Position numbers and translations under genes: made by a program. Shown here piece by piece: positions 3,744 to 28,755 of a stretch of DNA of 64,000 nt. Every line of letters begins with the position of its first letter. Positions within the stretch are counted from its first letter, which is position 1. The stretch is from a bacterium (GTDB taxonomy: Bacteria > Chloroflexota > Dehalococcoidia > Tepidiformales > Tepidiformaceae), in assembly GCA_003577245.1 (NCBI GenBank), contig QEVS01000001.1, positions 124,001 to 188,000 on the forward strand, written 5' to 3'. Below the pieces are notes generated by a model. The model saw only the letters and a program-made list of their open reading frames with translations. It did no database searches and was not told the origin of the DNA.

Positions 3744-3964
3744 CGGCCCACTCCTTCGCGCCTCGCCTGCTTTGTTGACAGGGCATGTCCGGGCCCGGGC
3801 AAAGGGGTTTTCCCCTATTCTCTGTTGGGCCTTCCCGGGATGATGATCTGACGGATGGCTGCCGGCCGCCGGACTCCCTGGAGCGTGAATCGCGGGACGT
3901 TGGTTTTCCTGTCCGTCCTTGACCGGCTGCCAACGCCCCGCGCATCCGCAGCGGCCGGCCGGCG

Positions 3965-5488
3965 ATGAGCCCCCGGCAGCCGGACGAGGTCGAACGCCTC
4001 AGGGCGGAGCTTGCTGCCGTCAGGCGAGAGTACGACTACTTCCTCTACTTCATGCCCGCAATGATCGAAGCGGAAGTCGGGACCGCCCGCGTCACGTACA
4101 TGAACCGCATGGCGCGCATCCTCCTCGGCTTCGACGAAGCCGACCTGCAGGCCGGGCTCAACGGCTTCAGCCTTCTCGATGACGATGGTGTCCAGATGGT
4201 TGTCGAAGTCCGCGAGCGGCACCTGGCCGCCAGCACGGGAGCGGGCAAACGCTATGAGCACTCCCCGGCGCAGGAACTCTACGACGTTCGCATTCGCCGG
4301 AAGGACGGCGCCTGGCTCCCCTGCGAAGTCCAGGGGTCCTACCTGCTCGACGAACAGGGAAACCCGCACCGCATCAGGTTCCTCCTCCGTGACACCACCC
4401 AACGCAGGGAGGCAGAGGACGCCCTCGCTCGCAGCGAGCGGCGTCTGCGCACCCTCGCCGAGAATGCCCCGGTCATCCTCCTCCAGGTGAACCGTCACGG
4501 CGAGATTGTCCTCAGCGAAGGTAAGGGCCTGCGCGACCTCGGGGGCGCGCCCGGGCAGCTTGTCGGCCTGAACATTCATGCCCTTACGCTCGCCTTCACC
4601 CCCCTTGGCTCCATCTACGAACGGGTTCAGGCCGGCGAAGCCATCGCCGAACGCCTCCAGGTCGCGGACCGCACCCTCGACATCCGCGCCGAACCCCTGC
4701 AGTCCGGCGAGGGCGACTTCGACGGATTCGTGGCCGTCGCGACCGACGTCACCGACCTCGATGTCGCCGGCCGCGCGCTTGTTCAGTCGCAGAAAATGGA
4801 GAGCCTCGGCATCCTTGCCGGCGGCATCGCCCATGACTTCAACAACGTTCTTGCGACTATCCTGACCGTCGCCGGCGCGTTGCGCCGTTCCCCGGCTCTC
4901 GGGCCGGATGAGCGCGAGTACCTGGAGACAATCGATCTCGCTGCCCGCCGCGGTGCCGAAGTTGCGGGACGCGTCCTCGCGTTCGCCCGGGGTGGTACCG
5001 CCAACCTCATCCCGGCAGATCTCCGCGAGGTCATCACCGAGGTCGCAAACCTCGCCACCCCTGCATTGCGGCGCACAGCCGCCGTCCGAACCTCGATTCC
5101 ACCCGAACCCGTGGTCGTTGAGTGCGACCGGGGGCAGCTCACGCAAGCCCTCCTGAACATGGTGCTCAACGCTCGCGATGCCTTGCCCCGCGGCGGCGAG
5201 GTGCGGCTGGCCCTCACCTGCGTGGGCCGTCAGGCCGTCATCACCGTGGCCGACAACGGCCATGGCATGGACGAAGCCACGCGCGCCCGAATATTCGAGC
5301 CATTCTTCACCACGAAGCCTCCTGGCCAGGGCACCGGCCTTGGCCTCGCCGTCGCCCAGGGAATCGTGGCGAATCTCAACGGCGCCATCTCCGTAACGAG
5401 CTCCCCTGGAGAAGGAACCACCTTCATCATCTCGCTGCCGTGCTATCAGAACGGTCAGTGCCCATGCGCCTCGCAGGAGGTGGAATAG
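3965..5488 (+). CDS. PAS-domain sensor histidine kinase
   Basis: 507-aa cytoplasmic sensor kinase with no membrane segment. A short helical start (residues 1-20) leads into a PAS domain (about 21-145, ending with RDTTQRREAEDAL), a second PAS (about 150-270, ending VATDVTDL), a HisKA-like dimerisation helix with His290 in GGIAHDFNN, and an HATPase domain with N box NMVLNARDALP, ADNGHGM and the EPFFTTK and GTGLGLA loops. The GGIAHDFNN phosphorylation motif is typical of kinases paired with a receiver protein. No receiver domain is fused and no response regulator is adjacent, so its partner is unknown. The signal is probably small-molecule or redox sensing through PAS, but no ligand can be named. 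A weak stem-loop overlaps the stop codon. Confidence 0.9.
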   Translation: MSPRQPDEVERLRAELAAVRREYDYFLYFMPAMIEAEVGTARVTYMNRMARILLGFDEADLQAGLNGFSLLDDDGVQMVVEVRERHLAASTGAGKRYEHSPAQELYDVRIRRKDGAWLPCEVQGSYLLDEQGNPHRIRFLLRDTTQRREAEDALARSERRLRTLAENAPVILLQVNRHGEIVLSEGKGLRDLGGAPGQLVGLNIHALTLAFTPLGSIYERVQAGEAIAERLQVADRTLDIRAEPLQSGEGDFDGFVAVATDVTDLDVAGRALVQSQKMESLGILAGGIAHDFNNVLATILTVAGALRRSPALGPDEREYLETIDLAARRGAEVAGRVLAFARGGTANLIPADLREVITEVANLATPALRRTAAVRTSIPPEPVVVECDRGQLTQALLNMVLNARDALPRGGEVRLALTCVGRQAVITVADNGHGMDEATRARIFEPFFTTKPPGQGTGLGLAVAQGIVANLNGAISVTSSPGEGTTFIISLPCYQNGQCPCASQEVE

Positions 5489-21542: not shown

Positions 21543-21619
21543 TGGTGGGCGATGAGGGGCTCGAACCCCCGACCCCCTCGGTGTAAACGAGGTGCTCTGA
21601 CCGGCTGAGCTAATCGCCC
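21543..21619 (-). tRNA. tRNA-Val (anticodon UAC)
   Basis: 77 nt with encoded CCA. Acceptor GGGCGAT pairs with ATCGCCC, discriminator A. The D arm starts TAGCTCAG, the anticodon stem CCTCG/CGAGG holds TTTACAC with anticodon TAC, and the T arm is GGGGGTTCGAGCCCCT. Confidence 0.97.
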
Positions 21620-21849
21620 CGGGGCCCAGTGTATCGCCATCCGCCCCAGCGGTCGCTTGCACAAAGACCGTTCTCCGATTCATGATGCGCATCGAGGTTA
21701 GCCCGCCGCCGCTTTAAGCTGGGTCAATTGTCCATATTCAAGATGGTTGCCCGGCTGCGAGTGATCCGCGGGTTGCCCTTTTCCGGGGGATGAATCATGA
21801 AGCAGGTTGTCGCCGCCAGGCTCTCCCCGCCCCGACGAGGTCTGTGGCT

Positions 21850-22623
21850 GTGAGACGGCATGTAATCGCAGCGGTTGCGGTCTGGGTAGTTCTGACTGCC
21901 ATCGGAGAGACGCTCGCCCTTGCCGACCTCTACCCCACCGTGGGGTCGAGCGAAGCCGAGGATTTCGACCGGATCTTCCGGATCCTCATCGTCATGGGCA
22001 TGCCCGTCTTCACCTTCGTCATTGCCGTGCTGTTCTACTGCGTCATCCGCTTCGGCAGCTTTGGCAAACCCTCGGAAGATGGTCCCGCCTACCGCGGCGC
22101 CGGGCTCGGTCCACGGGTCTGGCTGGCGGTCACGGGGTCACTCGCCCTGACGGTCATGATCTTCCCGGGGCTCACCGGCCTGGCCGAGCTTCAGCCCGAC
22201 AAGAGCGGCTACGGCTGGGGCGAATCCAATGCCGAGCTCGTCGTTCGTGTCGTTGGCTTTCGCTGGTCCTGGACCATGGAATACGCCGATGCAGGCGTCA
22301 CCGTCAGCACCGCCCAGGGCAAGGAGCTGGTGCTGCCCGTCGACACCCACGTGAAGTTCGAGATTGAGTCGACCGACGTCATCCATTCCTTCTGGATCCC
22401 CGCCTTCCGGATGAAGATCGACGCCCTCCCCGGGCGCACGACCCACATGACCGTGAAGACGACCGCGCTGGGCCGCTTCGAAGACGACGACGCCTACCGC
22501 GTGCAATGCGCCGAACTTTGCGGGCTCGACCACTCAACCATGACCTTCCCCGTGCGCGTCGTGCCCCGCGCTGAGTTCGAACAGTGGCTGCAAAGCCAGA
22601 AGCCCGCCGCAACGGCCCAGTAG
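21850..22623 (+). CDS. coxB: Cytochrome c oxidase subunit II
   Basis: About 257 aa. Two transmembrane helices (AAVAVWVVLTAIGETLAL and IVMGMPVFTFVIAVLFYCVI) lead to an external cupredoxin domain. The binuclear CuA ligands are visible: a His in STDVIHSFWIPAF, then CAELCGLDHSTM giving Cys-x-Glu-x-Cys, His and Met. It receives electrons from cytochrome c or another donor and passes them to haem a in subunit I. No cytochrome c domain is fused. I prefer the GTG at 21850 (GAGG 9 nt upstream); an ATG at 21790 in frame would add 20 residues that do not look like a family N-terminus. Confidence 0.92.
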   Translation: MRRHVIAAVAVWVVLTAIGETLALADLYPTVGSSEAEDFDRIFRILIVMGMPVFTFVIAVLFYCVIRFGSFGKPSEDGPAYRGAGLGPRVWLAVTGSLALTVMIFPGLTGLAELQPDKSGYGWGESNAELVVRVVGFRWSWTMEYADAGVTVSTAQGKELVLPVDTHVKFEIESTDVIHSFWIPAFRMKIDALPGRTTHMTVKTTALGRFEDDDAYRVQCAELCGLDHSTMTFPVRVVPRAEFEQWLQSQKPAATAQ

Positions 22624-22632
22624 GAGGAATAG

Positions 22633-24480
22633 ATGTACGCACTCTTTTCCGTCGCCAGTGGCCTTGGCACCGGGCTGATCGGCTTCTACCTCGGCCTTGG
22701 TCTTGTCGCCATTGTGCGCGGCCTGACGGGCCACGATGCCTACGACGAACAGGTGAGCATCACCTTCGGCTACGTCTTCGGTCTCATCGGCTGGCTCATG
22801 GGCGTCGGCATGTGGGGAGCCTGGGGGAGGGAATGGTTCGGCCTGCGCACCTACTGGCGTAAGGCGCCCGGCTGGCAGCGCTACTTCACCTTCAGCCCCG
22901 ACCACAAGGTCATCGGCCTCCAGTACCTGGTCACCTTCATCATCGTCTTCCTCCTCGCCGGGCTCGGGGCCATGCTCATGCGCTGGGAGCTCATGGAAAG
23001 CGGCATGCAGCTCTTCAACCACGACCAGTACAACGCCGTCATGGGGCTCCACGGGATCCTTATGGTGGCCGTGGCGGTCGCTGCCGTCGTCGGCGGGCTC
23101 GGCAACTACTTCGTCCCGCTCATGATCGGCGCCGAAGATATGGCCTTCCCGCGCCTCAACGCCCTCACCTACTGGCTCATTCCTCCCGTCGCCGCGATGC
23201 TCCTGTCCACCCCGTTCCTCGGTGGCATCGAGCACGGCTGGACCGCCTACCCGCCCCTGTCCGTTGTCACCGATAGCTCCCAGGTCCTCTTCGGCCTCGC
23301 CGTCATCACCTTCGGCCTCACGTCCATCCTGGGCGGCCTCAACTTCATCATCACCATCATCTACATGCGCGCTCCCGGCCTAACCTGGGGCAAGCTCCCC
23401 ATCTTCGTCTGGTCAATGTTCGTGACCTCCTGGATGGCACTCCTCTACACCCAGGGCTTCGCCGTCGCCCTCCTCATGGTCCTGCTCGATCGCATCGCCG
23501 GCATGAGCTTCTTCAACGCCGAAACGGGCGGCGACCCGCTCCTCTACCAGCACGTCTTCTGGTTCTACTCCCACCCGGCCGTCTACATCATGGTCCTCCC
23601 CGGGTTCGGCATCGCCCTCGAAGTGATCAGCCACTTCTCTCGCAAGCCCCTCTTTGCCTACCGCTATGCCGTCGGTGGCCTGCTCGGAATCCTTGGCCTT
23701 GGCGGAGTCGTCTGGGCCCATCACATGTTCACCTCGGGCATGCCCAACTACCTCCACGGCCCCTTCCTCGTCGCCACCGAGGCCATCTCCATCCCCACCG
23801 GGCTCGTGTTCCTCGCCGCCCTGGGCACCATCTGGATGGGCAGGCTCTGGCTCCGCACGCCGATGCTCTTCGGCCTCGCCGTCATCTTCAACTTCGCCTG
23901 CGGTGGCGTCACCGGCATCTTCCTTGCCGATGTCCCGACCGACATCCACCTGCAGGACACCTACTTCGTTGTGGCCCACTTCCACTACACCATCGTGGGC
24001 GGAGAGATCTTCGGCCTCTTCGCCGGCATCTACTACTGGTTCCCCAAGATGACCGGCCGCATGTACAACGAGAAGCTGGCCCAGCTCCACTTCTGGTGGA
24101 TGTTCATCAGCTTCAACGTCACCTTCTTTGTGATGCATTGGCCCGGCATCCAGGGAATGAACCGTCGCATCGCCGACTACCCGGAATCCCTGGAGAACGT
24201 GAACCTCTTCGTCAGCATCTCCGCCTTCCTTCTGGGCGCCAGCTTCATCGTCTTCGTCTACAACATGGTCTACTCCTGGATCCGCGGCCCGGTTGCCGAG
24301 GCCAACCCCTGGGCCGCACGAACCATCGAGTGGCAGATCCCCTCGCCACCTCCCGTCGAGAACTTCCCCGAGCCGCCCCTGGTCAAGGGCCATCCTTACG
24401 ACTACGGGGTGCCCGGCTCAGTGCACGCCGTCTTCCCGGGCGCGGCAACCCTCCCCGCTGGCGGCGGAGGCGGTCAGTGA
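22633..24480 (+). CDS. coxA: Cytochrome c oxidase subunit I, A2 type
   Basis: 615-aa haem-copper oxidase core. An extra N-terminal two-helix region (residues 1-75) precedes the canonical start (FTFSPDHKVIGLQYL). Haem a ligands are His140 (GLHGILM) and His451; haem a3 ligand is His449 (AHFHYTIVGG). CuB ligands are His314 in FYSHPAVY and His363-His364 in WAHHMFTSG, with Tyr318 as the cross-linked tyrosine. The Glu of the usual GHPEV proton-channel motif is replaced by the YSHPAV form that defines A2-type oxidases. Preceded by a strong AGGAGG and 9 bp from coxB. Confidence 0.96.
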   Translation: MYALFSVASGLGTGLIGFYLGLGLVAIVRGLTGHDAYDEQVSITFGYVFGLIGWLMGVGMWGAWGREWFGLRTYWRKAPGWQRYFTFSPDHKVIGLQYLVTFIIVFLLAGLGAMLMRWELMESGMQLFNHDQYNAVMGLHGILMVAVAVAAVVGGLGNYFVPLMIGAEDMAFPRLNALTYWLIPPVAAMLLSTPFLGGIEHGWTAYPPLSVVTDSSQVLFGLAVITFGLTSILGGLNFIITIIYMRAPGLTWGKLPIFVWSMFVTSWMALLYTQGFAVALLMVLLDRIAGMSFFNAETGGDPLLYQHVFWFYSHPAVYIMVLPGFGIALEVISHFSRKPLFAYRYAVGGLLGILGLGGVVWAHHMFTSGMPNYLHGPFLVATEAISIPTGLVFLAALGTIWMGRLWLRTPMLFGLAVIFNFACGGVTGIFLADVPTDIHLQDTYFVVAHFHYTIVGGEIFGLFAGIYYWFPKMTGRMYNEKLAQLHFWWMFISFNVTFFVMHWPGIQGMNRRIADYPESLENVNLFVSISAFLLGASFIVFVYNMVYSWIRGPVAEANPWAARTIEWQIPSPPPVENFPEPPLVKGHPYDYGVPGSVHAVFPGAATLPAGGGGGQ

Positions 24481-24534
24481 CCCCGTTCACCATCTCTGCA
24501 ATGCCGGCCCCAGGCCGGGTAGGGGGCATCATCA

Positions 24535-24731
24535 ATGGGTAGCTACAGGATTGGCTGGATCATGGCAGTGTGGCTGCTGGTCCTGATCGCCGTCGACTTC
24601 TCCATTGCCCAGTGGGTCGACCACAAGCAGCTTCGCTTCTCGCTGCTCACCATCGGCACCTTCGCCGAAGCCGTACCCATTGCCTACTACTTCATGCACA
24701 TCTCACGCGTCTGGCGCGGGGAGGTCCACTG

Positions 24732-24732
<1 letters not shown>
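24535..24732 (+). CDS. Small cytochrome c oxidase subunit IV-like membrane protein
   Basis: 65-aa protein with two predicted helices (IGWIMAVWLLVLIAVDFSIA and LLTIGTFAEAVPIAYYFMHI) and ends HISRVWRGEVH. Size, topology, the YYFMHI-type second helix and position between coxA and coxC match prokaryotic subunit IV, thought to help assembly or stability. The stop TGA shares its A with the coxC start, so translation is coupled. Confidence 0.8.
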
Positions 24733-25286
<554 letters not shown>

Positions 25287-25302
25287 GGGCGGAGCGCCGG
25301 CC

Positions 25303-25827
25303 GTGAGCGAAAGCGCGAAGCCTGGTGAGAAGCTCGCCGGCCTGCGCTTCTGGGCAGGCTGGTTGGGCGCCGGCCTTGCCCTGGGGTTTCTTCTCAGCAT
25401 CATCTGGTGGGCCCTCCTCGAACCTGCCGCCGCCGGCAACGACGTCGCCGAGCTCACCATTCCAGCCGGAACCGCCGCCGCCGTGGCTCGCGGCGAACCG
25501 GCGCCCTTCATCCCCAACTCCCTTTCCCTGGGCCGCAACCGCGAGCTCGTGGTCCGCAACAATGATGTCGCCGGCCACAAGGTCGGGGCCTGGACGGTCC
25601 CCCCGGGGGGCGTCGCCGTCATCAAGGCGGCAGCCGGGACCGGAGACCTCATCTGCTCCGTGCACCCGTCGGGATACCTGGACATCCAGATCGACAGTCG
25701 CCCCGCCTTCGCCACGGTCCTCCTGCAGTCGGCCCTCGTCGGCCTTCCCTTCGGACTTGCTGCCGCTATTGCCGTTCGCGTCGGCAGGCGCCTGCAGATG
25801 GACGAACAGGCGGCCGGCAGCGCGTAA
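25303..25827 (+). CDS. Membrane-anchored cupredoxin-like protein
   Basis: 174-aa protein not matching a standard oxidase subunit. One helix lies near the N-terminus (about 14-38, LRFWAGWLGAGLALGFLLSI) and a second at the C-terminus (about 137-160). Between them is a beta-rich domain that reads like a cupredoxin: IPAGTAAAV, RNRELVVRNNDVAGHKVG (His92), VPPGG, then DLICSVHPSGYLD (Cys118, His121). A His...Cys-x2-His set could bind copper. The gene follows coxC by 16 bp with GTG start and belongs to the cox operon. It might be an electron donor or a copper carrier for CuA/CuB assembly. Function is inference. Confidence 0.7.
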   Translation: MSESAKPGEKLAGLRFWAGWLGAGLALGFLLSIIWWALLEPAAAGNDVAELTIPAGTAAAVARGEPAPFIPNSLSLGRNRELVVRNNDVAGHKVGAWTVPPGGVAVIKAAAGTGDLICSVHPSGYLDIQIDSRPAFATVLLQSALVGLPFGLAAAIAVRVGRRLQMDEQAAGSA

Positions 25828-25839
25828 GGGCCCGCGCGC

Positions 25840-28755
25840 CTACCCTGCGAAACCCCTTCGCACCGTGTTCTCCGTGATCACCCGCGCGAACATGAACTGC
25901 TGCAGGTAATCGCGCCCGCCCGCCTTGTCCCCCGCCCCCGACATCGCAAACCCGCCAAAGGGCTGCCTGCCCACTTTCGCCCCGGTAATGCCGCGGTTGA
26001 TGTAGAGATTCCCTGTGCGAAACCCCCGGCGGGCGAGCGCGATGTGCCGCGGATTGCGCGAGAACACGCCCCCGGTGAGCGCAAACGGCGAGTCCAGCGC
26101 CAGCGCCAGAGCCTCCTCGAACGAGCCCGCCCGGAACATCGCCAGCACGGGCCCGAAGACCTCCTCCCGGGCCAATCGTGAATCCGCTGGCACCCCTTCG
26201 AAAACATGCGGCGTCACGTAGTGCCCGCCTTCCCCCGCCGGACCACGGGCAACCAGCCTGCCCTCTGCCAGCCCAATGGCAATGTAGCTCTCGATCTTCC
26301 CCCGCGCCTCTGCCGAAATCACGGGCGGCACGAACGTGTACGGGTCCTCCGACGGTCCCACAACCAGGCTCTCCACCGCGGCCGCCAGCCTCGAACGGAA
26401 CTCCTCGTACGCTGATCCAATCACTATCACGCGGCTACACGCGCTGCACTTCTGACCCGCGTAACCGAACGCCGAAGCCGCCACTCCCGCCACCGCCTGG
26501 TCCAGGTCCGCATCGTCGTCCACGATGATGGCGTTCTTCCCACCCATCTCCGCGATGACACGCTTCACATTTCGCTGACCCGGCCGGACCTTCGCCGCCG
26601 TCTCCATGATTCGCAGTCCCACCGCGTTGCTCCCGGTGAAGGCAATCACGTCCACTCCCGGGTGCTCCACCAGCGCCTGCCCCGTCTCGCTTCCCGGGCC
26701 CGGCAGGTACTGCGCCACTCCGCCGGGCACGCCCGCTTCCTGCAGCAGCCGCACGAGCATCGATGCCACCACCGGTGACTGGGCGGCCGGCTTCAGGATG
26801 GCCGCGCACCCCGCCGCCAGCGCAGCCGAGCTCATTCCCGCGATGATCGCAAGCGGGAAGTTCCACGGCGCGATGACCGCTGCCACACCGCGTGCTTCAT
26901 ACAGGCACGTGTTGGTCTCCCCGGGCGGCTCCACCAGCGGCTGGCCCCCGGCCAGGCGCTCGGCTTCGTCTGCGTAGTAGCAGAGGTAGTCGATGGCCTC
27001 GCAGACATCCGCGTCGGCTTCCCGCCACGGCTTGGCGCTCTCGAAGACCATCGTCGCTGCGAAATCAAACCTGCGCCGGTCCAGCATGGTGGCCGCCCGC
27101 CTGAGGACCGTCGCCCGCTCGGCCGCTGTCCTGTCGCGCCAGCCCGGGAACCCCGCTCTCGCTGCCTCCACCGCCTGTTCAACCTGCTCCGCGCCCGCCC
27201 GTGCCACCAGCCCCATCACGGTTGCAGGCTCGGATGGGCAGCGCACGCCATCTTCACCCTGCGTCTGCACCTCCGCCCCGTTAATGAGAAGCGGGTAGTG
27301 CGAGCCAAAGCGCTTCCGCGCGGCCGCGAGGGCCGCCTCCATCTCCCGCCGAGGGCCGGGCAGGTGGAATTCCGCCGCCGGGTGATTCGCGAACGCCTCC
27401 GAAGCCGACCGTTGAACCTCCTCAGCCGCGGCGGGAGGGGCCAGCGCCATGCCGGCGTCGCCCTCTTCGTGCCGGTGCATGAACCAGGATTCGTTCGAGG
27501 TGTTCTCCAGCAGCCGCCGCACGAGGTACGCCATGCCGGGGATGATCTCCCCCGCCGGGACGTAGACCCGCGTTCGATAGCCCATCCCCGCTACCGCCTT
27601 CCGCAATCCCTCGGCCATCCCGAACAGGAACTGGAATTCGATGTCTTCGCGCGGGATTCCCGCGGCTTCGCAGCGCACCATCGCCTGGGCAATGCTGCGC
27701 GGGTTGTGTGTTCCAAAGGCAGGCCGGAGCGCCGGATACGCGGCCGCGAGCAGCTCGCTGCAGCGTTCGTAGCTCGCGTCGGTCGCTGGTTTCGCCTCGA
27801 ACACCGGGACAGGGTGGCCCTCCTGCCCCGCGACAATCACCTCCTCGTCCCAGTAGGCGCCCTTCACGAGCCGGATTGTGAGCGGCGCGCCACGCTGTTC
27901 GGCAAGGGACCGGAGTCGCCTTACGTCGTCCTCCGCCGAGCGCAGGTAGGCCTGCACCACGATCCCGGCGCCGTCCCAGTCCCGGAGCTCTCCCGTGGTC
28001 AGCGCGTCCTCGGCAATCGTGTGGCTCAAGTCCTTGAACCGGAACTGCTCCATATCAATGTTCACGAAGATGCCCAGCGCACGCGCGCCCACCAGCAGCG
28101 GCAGCAACCGTCGCCTCACCGCCTCGGACGTGGCTCGCGGCGCCGCCGGCTCGAAGCGCGCGGTGAACGCCGAGAGCTTCAGCGAAACGTTCGGCTGGCG
28201 AATCTCCCGCGGGGCGGCGCTATCGACGCTGTCCCGTGCCAGGACTTCCATCAGCTCCAGGTAGCGGGCCCCATACGCGTCCGCCTCTGCCTCCGAAAGC
28301 GTCGCCTCGCCCAGCAGGTCGATCGTGTACGCCGTTCCCTGCCGCCCAAGCTCCCGCAGCCGCGGAAGCGCTTCCCGCGGGGTCGCCCCCGCTATGAACC
28401 GCCCCGACATCGCGAACACCCCTTGCCGTACCACCCGCGAAAGGACCGGCCGGAAAGGCCCTGCGCCAGCCATCGCCGACCCCATGCGCACCGGCAGCGG
28501 CGACTCGTCCCGGAAGTACTGCCGCACGTGGTCGGCCACAGCCGCGCTCGTGCGCAGGGCAGGCAGAACGTCCACAAAACGCAGGAGCTTGACGCGAAAC
28601 TCCGGGTCGTTCCCGGCCCACTCCATGAGCCGTTCCTGCCACCACCCCGGGCTCAGAACGATGAGCCTTTCGGGTTCCACCGCGGCGAGCAGCTCCCGCC
28701 CTCGCTCCTGGATGGCTGCCTCAATCAAGTGACTGTCAGACCCGCCCGCTGTCAC
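25840..28755 (-). CDS. putA: Bifunctional proline dehydrogenase / L-glutamate gamma-semialdehyde dehydrogenase
   Basis: 971-aa enzyme that oxidises proline to glutamate in two steps. The FAD-dependent proline dehydrogenase barrel (about residues 80-430) shows VNIDMEQF, RLVKGAYWDEE and EFQFLFGMAEGLR. The NAD-dependent aldehyde dehydrogenase domain (about 490-960) has APWNFPLAI, FTGSNAVGLRI, IAEMGGKNAIIVD (general-base Glu), GYAGQKCSACSR (nucleophile Cys) and EEVFGPVLA. It lacks the ribbon-helix-helix DNA-binding domain and the C-terminal extension of long PutA proteins, so it is an enzyme only. Starts with GTG; divergent from dxr with 63 bp between them. Confidence 0.93.
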   Translation of the reverse strand: MTAGGSDSHLIEAAIQERGRELLAAVEPERLIVLSPGWWQERLMEWAGNDPEFRVKLLRFVDVLPALRTSAAVADHVRQYFRDESPLPVRMGSAMAGAGPFRPVLSRVVRQGVFAMSGRFIAGATPREALPRLRELGRQGTAYTIDLLGEATLSEAEADAYGARYLELMEVLARDSVDSAAPREIRQPNVSLKLSAFTARFEPAAPRATSEAVRRRLLPLLVGARALGIFVNIDMEQFRFKDLSHTIAEDALTTGELRDWDGAGIVVQAYLRSAEDDVRRLRSLAEQRGAPLTIRLVKGAYWDEEVIVAGQEGHPVPVFEAKPATDASYERCSELLAAAYPALRPAFGTHNPRSIAQAMVRCEAAGIPREDIEFQFLFGMAEGLRKAVAGMGYRTRVYVPAGEIIPGMAYLVRRLLENTSNESWFMHRHEEGDAGMALAPPAAAEEVQRSASEAFANHPAAEFHLPGPRREMEAALAAARKRFGSHYPLLINGAEVQTQGEDGVRCPSEPATVMGLVARAGAEQVEQAVEAARAGFPGWRDRTAAERATVLRRAATMLDRRRFDFAATMVFESAKPWREADADVCEAIDYLCYYADEAERLAGGQPLVEPPGETNTCLYEARGVAAVIAPWNFPLAIIAGMSSAALAAGCAAILKPAAQSPVVASMLVRLLQEAGVPGGVAQYLPGPGSETGQALVEHPGVDVIAFTGSNAVGLRIMETAAKVRPGQRNVKRVIAEMGGKNAIIVDDDADLDQAVAGVAASAFGYAGQKCSACSRVIVIGSAYEEFRSRLAAAVESLVVGPSEDPYTFVPPVISAEARGKIESYIAIGLAEGRLVARGPAGEGGHYVTPHVFEGVPADSRLAREEVFGPVLAMFRAGSFEEALALALDSPFALTGGVFSRNPRHIALARRGFRTGNLYINRGITGAKVGRQPFGGFAMSGAGDKAGGRDYLQQFMFARVITENTVRRGFAG

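Follow-up and report, generated by a model that had tools for sequence, protein, structure and literature searches.

A two-helix cupredoxin-like protein encoded behind coxC in an A2 cytochrome oxidase operon of Chloroflexota

The cytochrome oxidase subunit CoxB is a membrane-held cupredoxin, and its CuA center requires the motif CxxxCxxxHxxM. The purple cupredoxin Nmar1307 of Nitrosopumilus maritimus (5fc9) was solved as a 95-residue chain with no flanking membrane helices; its study carries a title that speaks of an open binding site, and the protein is reportedly cited as oxidizing NO to nitrite. In auracyanin, copper is bound by two histidines, one cysteine and one methionine (PMC3150298, available portion). 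AcoP of Acidithiobacillus ferrooxidans is a membrane-held single cupredoxin that is encoded with cox genes and has been proposed to serve an aa3 oxidase (PMC4059628 and PMC5982212, available portions). As far as the available portion of PMC4059628 describes it, AcoP has 183 residues, one N-terminal helix, a long extra region and the ligands H85 and C159-X6-H166-X4-M171, and it sustains oxidase activity and has cytochrome c and the oxidase as binding partners.

The product of the gene described here, cup, may have its nearest functional analogue in AcoP, a likeness of description and gene place. Like AcoP, Cup is a single cupredoxin of a cox cluster and is predicted to be membrane held. However, it has two helices instead of one, and it carries CxxHPSG with no axial methionine; the C-X6-H-X4-M ligand loop reported for AcoP in the portion of PMC4059628 at hand is absent from Cup. 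Because both the ligand loop and the topology differ, Cup was not filed as AcoP. Cup shares with CoxB the character of a membrane-held cupredoxin of the same oxidase, but has one cysteine where CuA requires two, and it lacks the methionine of auracyanin. The two-helix family was found nowhere in the open-access (PMC) literature, a scope in which subscription journals are mostly not included. Cup is thus a variant among oxidase-dedicated cupredoxins that is previously undescribed in open-access literature.

The window, the whole 64,000-nucleotide stretch of DNA under analysis, contains an operon of the A2 type that runs in one direction, on the forward strand, in the order coxB-coxA-coxIV-coxC-cup. 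Subunit II, with the CuA motif CAELCGLDHSTM, is encoded by coxB (21790..22623; COX2, E 2.9e-19; TIGR02866 over its cut-off), and its short tail lacks CxxCH, so that no domain is fused behind CuA (row L035). Subunit I is encoded by coxA (22633..24480; COX1, E 7.2e-137); its translation has an N-terminal extension of about 85 residues and contains YSHPAVY, which we take to be the mark of A2 oxidases. The 65-residue small subunit IV encoded by coxIV (24535..24732) matches COX4_pro at E 0.0014, short of the Pfam cut-off, and the gene keeps the same place in 20 of 23 genomes. Subunit III, of 184 residues, is encoded by coxC (24732..25286; COX3, E 2.1e-20). The open reading frame of cup (25303..25827) encodes 174 residues with a single cysteine, and begins at a GTG with GGAG 8 nt upstream. 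The successive intergenic gaps from coxB to cup are 9, 54, -1 and 16 bp, and the gene 3' of cup (25840-28755) is oriented the opposite way. The initial annotation had called cup the fifth gene of the operon, directly behind coxC: the count is correct because coxIV lies between coxA and coxC, and the 16-bp gap bears out the adjacency. A scan of 21600-25900 for promoters and terminators detected nothing above shuffled sequences.

Comparison of the window with the other genome of the same genus gave a dN/dS of 0.09 for cup and of 0.03 to 0.11 for the four cox genes. The value for cup indicates purifying selection, and together with homologues in 23 of 61 relatives it places the gene far beyond a chance reading frame in GC-rich DNA, an explanation that was ruled out.

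Structure prediction with AlphaFold2, for which 20 family members served as input, yielded a model with a mean pLDDT of 86.5 and a pTM of 0.65. The model has an N-terminal helix at residues 7-38 (25321..25416), an eight-strand sandwich at residues 48-131 (25444..25695) and a C-terminal helix at residues 136-173 (25708..25821), all on the forward strand. Residues W35 and W36 of the first helix are kept at 90% or more in an alignment of 23 close homologues that includes the window. The predicted sandwich has the Greek-key arrangement of seven or eight strands that defines the cupredoxin superfamily, and the top Foldseek and VIA matches in the Protein Data Bank are cupredoxins (Foldseek: 4hci, E 4e-4; 5fc9, E 1e-3). 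A cupredoxin-like domain held between two helices, as had been proposed from the sequence, was therefore recovered by the prediction. A second model, of the HCQ homologue L131, kept the fold, although it was built on the same 20 sequences and is not independent of the first.

In sequence searches, the window protein matched no Pfam and no NCBIfam family, in line with the earlier statement that it is not CtaG, Sco or a standard oxidase subunit. It did not reach the curated Pfam cut-off of Copper-bind or Cupredoxin_1; Copper-bind was touched by one of the 20 family members of profile A3 (E 0.013). A direct sequence search of the Protein Data Bank with Cup gave chance-level matches only. Plastocyanin-like lipoproteins, which belong to Copper-bind and Cupredoxin_1, are homologous to Cup on the strength of a weak profile match (E 5.9e-6, G000:C3) and have the IPAG and CxxHP patterns in common with it, but they possess an axial methionine (CxxHPxM) and lack the C-terminal helix.

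The closest fold to residues 48-131 was that of Nmar1307 (VIA Z 8.6, rmsd 2.5, 81 residues aligned), at 15% identity; its sequence, with CSFHPW, also gave a weak match to the family profile (E 0.021). Since this best match is the protein said to oxidize NO, Cup might likewise react with NO or another small molecule at a type 1 copper that lies open beside the oxidase. We regard this as highly improbable: the match is generic for cupredoxins, with the next VIA matches at Z 7.8 and 7.7, and nothing seen among the genes of the window's operon connects it with nitrogen oxides.

Three residues of the sandwich are candidate type 1 copper ligands, as judged from the sequence: His92 (25576..25578), Cys118 (25654..25656) and His121 (25663..25665), all on the forward strand and all numbered correctly in the initial annotation. 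Among the 23 close homologues, Cys118 is invariant and each histidine is present in 22, the exceptions being His92 to Gln in G058 and His121 to Thr in G015. The full triad, in the order H...CxxH, is found in the window and in 21 of the 23 rows altogether, and in 21 of 22 members of the window's own family. No axial methionine or glutamine follows the second histidine: the residue six positions after the cysteine, Gly124 (25672..25674, forward strand), is glycine in 23 of 23 rows. It was assigned to the axial position of CxxHPxM cupredoxins by eye, through a gap-free alignment with the CDYHPQM proteins that the same genome encodes. Replacement of the axial methionine by a hydrophobic residue raises the potential of such a site (PMC4059628, available portion). 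Lack of conservation of the ligands in homologues had been named as an outcome that would refute the proposal, and the result was divided. The triad holds within the family, but many distant homologues have lost one ligand, and in those of the Anaerolineae type it decays to HCQ, HCK, HCV, HCR or HSH; the copper site is not universal in the wider family.

The distribution of cup follows that of one oxidase. By protein search, a homologue is present in 23 of 61 relatives, own genome counted, of which 22 belong to the window's own family and one (G058) to another family of the class; in all 23 it lies directly behind coxC. A CoxA of at least 64% identity is encoded by 24 of the 61 genomes, and cup by all of these except G040. 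No full-length homologue was found in the 37 genomes without this oxidase (0/37); a profile search there gave weak matches only, and those that were read were ordinary cupredoxins. Thus, cup is tightly linked to one A2 oxidase lineage.

Beyond these relatives, 80 named loci retrieved with CoxA as bait contained 19 cup homologues in 18 loci, from Dehalococcoidia, Anaerolineae and other Chloroflexi, and Actinomycetes or Acidimicrobiia. Whole-genome searches with profile A3 matched 66 of 400 genomes of the phylum at E 1e-5 and, at E 1e-6, 8 of 177 genomes in the class of G295 and 31 of 343 in the window's own class, the weakest of these matches being possibly ordinary cupredoxins. In one set of 20 stretches, cup lay beside cox genes in 13 and apart from them in 7 (L261, L262, L263, L268, L272, L273 and L275, of which L261 and L262 are short and ended by the contig end). 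In another set of 20, cox genes lay beside cup in 6 (L200 and L202-L206).

Several variants were seen in passing. Short relatives without the C-terminal helix occur outside cox operons (L187, L188 and L191-L197); His92 is gone from them and CxxH is retained in most. An Actinomycetes operon (L095) carries tandem cup copies at 3963-4550 and 4577-5107 on the forward strand, each of which has lost a different ligand (HCL and HTH). A lipoprotein-like cupredoxin stands directly behind coxC, with no cup, in 7 of 17 A2 loci read, which are other operons of this oxidase clade (L080, L081, L083, L084, L089, L091 and L092); four of the seven proteins were tested against Pfam, and two pass a cut-off. A type 1 cupredoxin (C..HP..M) is fused behind the CuA domain of CoxB in L023 (G058), L200 (G295) and L264-L267 (genomes G496, G452, G453 and G459).

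Small soluble cytochromes c seem to be scarce or absent in the cup-bearing bacteria. This scarcity was assessed with two Pfam models for cytochrome c, which gave few matches in the 23 searched genomes belonging to the window's family, nearly all of them in frames of at least 450 residues; the shorter frames have 116 residues in G012 and 402 and 77 in G004. The window's own genome, which is 72% complete, has a single match, a 526-residue complex III protein (L216:1342-2922, reverse strand, G000:C15). This protein combines a cytochrome c domain (residues 45-128) with three LysM domains and, at the C-terminus, a cupredoxin that ends in CDYHPDM; its gene closes a complex III operon that also includes genes for cytochrome b, a petD-like protein and a Rieske protein. 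G001 encodes a 526-residue subunit of the same domain make-up (L220:1387-2967, reverse strand). All 19 family genomes that were read have a cupredoxin at the C-terminus of their cytochrome c-bearing complex III subunit, the 17 beyond these two included; in one of the 17 (G007) the methionine is lost. The same open-access (PMC) literature, again with subscription journals mostly beyond its scope, held no description of a cytochrome c-LysM-cupredoxin subunit of complex III. The window's genome also encodes two plastocyanin-like lipoproteins. In G001, a 754-residue frame (L219:705-2969, reverse strand) has a CopC-like start, recognized by eye, and a cytochrome c match near its end.

We consider the chances about even that Cup is an oxidase-bound type 1 copper relay, an electron-entry subunit that is fed by cupredoxins and feeds CuA. 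Cup would be an accessory subunit of the A2 oxidase, its two membrane helices probably fixing the cupredoxin domain on the outer face beside CoxB. His92, Cys118 and His121 would bind one type 1 copper with no axial methionine. This copper would be reduced by the cupredoxin domain that ends the complex III subunit, or by plastocyanin-like lipoproteins, and would presumably pass the electrons on to CuA. The relay is supported by the near-perfect association of cup with this oxidase, by cytochrome c models that match almost exclusively long fusion frames, by the constant cupredoxin end of complex III and by the closest fold being that of a purple type 1 cupredoxin. Other operons of the clade, in which coxC is followed by a lipoprotein-like cupredoxin or CoxB is itself fused to a cupredoxin, point the same way. 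Against it, complex III has its cupredoxin independently of cup, which is present in twelve of the 17 further genomes and missing from five; complex III could hand electrons straight to CuA. The several family members outside cox operons also count against it.

The state of the copper site was compared with that of CoxB in 55 operons that had CoxA, CoxB and cup all within the stretch. Loci without both CoxA and CoxB, repeated identical CoxA stretches, and CoxA matches shorter than 420 residues or below 42% identity had been dropped beforehand. Where CoxB has no fused domain, the triad of Cup is intact in 28 of 30 operons; the two broken cases are L025 (HCT) and L095. None of the 19 operons with a cytochrome c fused to CoxB has an intact triad. 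Both the intact triads without a CoxB fusion, alongside the 21 of 22 in the window's family, and their absence beside cytochrome c argue for the relay. A rule that the site is intact exactly when CoxB lacks a fused redox domain nevertheless fails, because the site is broken in L025 and L095 although nothing is fused to CoxB there, and because CoxB with a fused type 1 cupredoxin is accompanied by an intact triad in four of six operons (broken in two); these exceptions count against the relay as well. On a CoxA tree of 65 rows, made by a quick method after omitting the near-duplicate L109 and adding 11 rows that lack cup, a minimum of five changes is required for the triad state and of two for the fusion state, and cytochrome c fusion and broken triad form only one independent pair. 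No significance can therefore be claimed: the pattern is striking, yet it is one historical event, and to that extent it also weighs against the relay.

Since members without the triad retain the fold and the operon place, some role of Cup needs no copper, and a structural role is for this reason the main rival. Cup may be a stabilizing subunit in the manner of AcoP, its own cupredoxin domain serving as a shield or brace for the CuA domain or for the face on which the donor docks, with copper optional and lost several times. The repeated triad changes on the CoxA tree, during which the predicted fold and the place behind coxC or Sco were kept, are in keeping with this role, as are the support of oxidase activity by AcoP and its binding to both partners (PMC4059628, available portion). 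However, the triad and Gly124 are nearly invariant in the window's family even though Cup falls to 32 to 49% identity with the window protein outside the genus, a constancy that pure structure would not ask for. We judge a structural or stabilizing role to be somewhat unlikely.

A more extended form of the relay is tentative, and we give it less credence than the relay itself: a wire from copper to copper that dispenses with a mobile cytochrome c and runs from heme c through two type 1 coppers to CuA across the cell envelope. In such a wire, a type 1 cupredoxin would be tethered to complex III, behind the cytochrome c and LysM domains, and the oxidase would have as its own part a type 1 copper subunit with two helices and an axial glycine. 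Where CoxB gained a cytochrome c, this subunit would have been retained as a copper-free scaffold.

Several established copper proteins were considered as identities for Cup and rejected. The copper site of Sco is CxxxC; Cup has a single cysteine, no CxxxC and no match to PF02630. CtaG (Caa3_CtaG) was rejected in the absence of a match to PF09678, and a CuA-bearing subunit II in the absence of CxxxCxxxHxxM and of a second cysteine. The PCuAC motif H(M)X10MX21HXM (PMC9145763) is likewise lacking, methionine occurring only at the start and near the C-terminus of Cup.

A role in CuA assembly was suggested by the gene order of five Anaerolineae-type operons (L107, L131, L141, L202 and L206), in which coxC, Sco, cup and SURF1 follow one another and, in four of the five, a CtaA-like gene comes next, with Sco, SURF1 and CtaA recognized by eye. 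This position of cup between the Sco and SURF1 genes suits an assembly role and counts against the relay. Cup would then be a membrane-held copper donor that loads CoxB, and an axial side without methionine is compatible with ligand exchange and would ease the transfer. However, in those same operons the second histidine of Cup is lost while the CuA motif of CoxB, which still has to be loaded, is kept; the site is broken where cup neighbors Sco, and this weakens the proposal. Cup also has one cysteine, no CxxxC and no methionine-rich motif, and the window's genome already encodes Sco and CtaG. We judge an assembly factor to be improbable.

The same genes bear on the remaining proposals of the initial annotation, that Cup might be a dedicated donor to CuA or a copper chaperone in a lineage whose usual ones are missing from the cluster. 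That Sco and CtaG are missing is true of the cluster, but Sco gives three strong matches and CtaG two elsewhere in the genome, away from the cox operon; on one contig, genes for a plastocyanin-like lipoprotein, CtaG and two Sco proteins lie within about 14 kb (L215, G000:C15:20000-38000). The idea that copper chaperones are missing from the organism was thereby ruled out, and a replacement chaperone is not needed. The dedicated donor, which the relay preserves, fits best, given the few small cytochromes c matched by the two Pfam models, the complex III cupredoxin and a site that is intact mostly where CoxB has no fusion; it does so with the reservation that the site is not universal in the wider family.

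As a relay, Cup would supply a concrete subunit and a testable site for electron transfer from complex III to the oxidase in the numerous uncultured Chloroflexota and Acidimicrobiia without obvious small cytochromes c. It fills an annotation gap, since no Pfam or NCBIfam model covers the family. It also offers a natural putative type 1 site with an invariant glycine at the position of the axial methionine and, to judge from the ligands lost, a lineage whose version of the subunit seems to have given up its copper.
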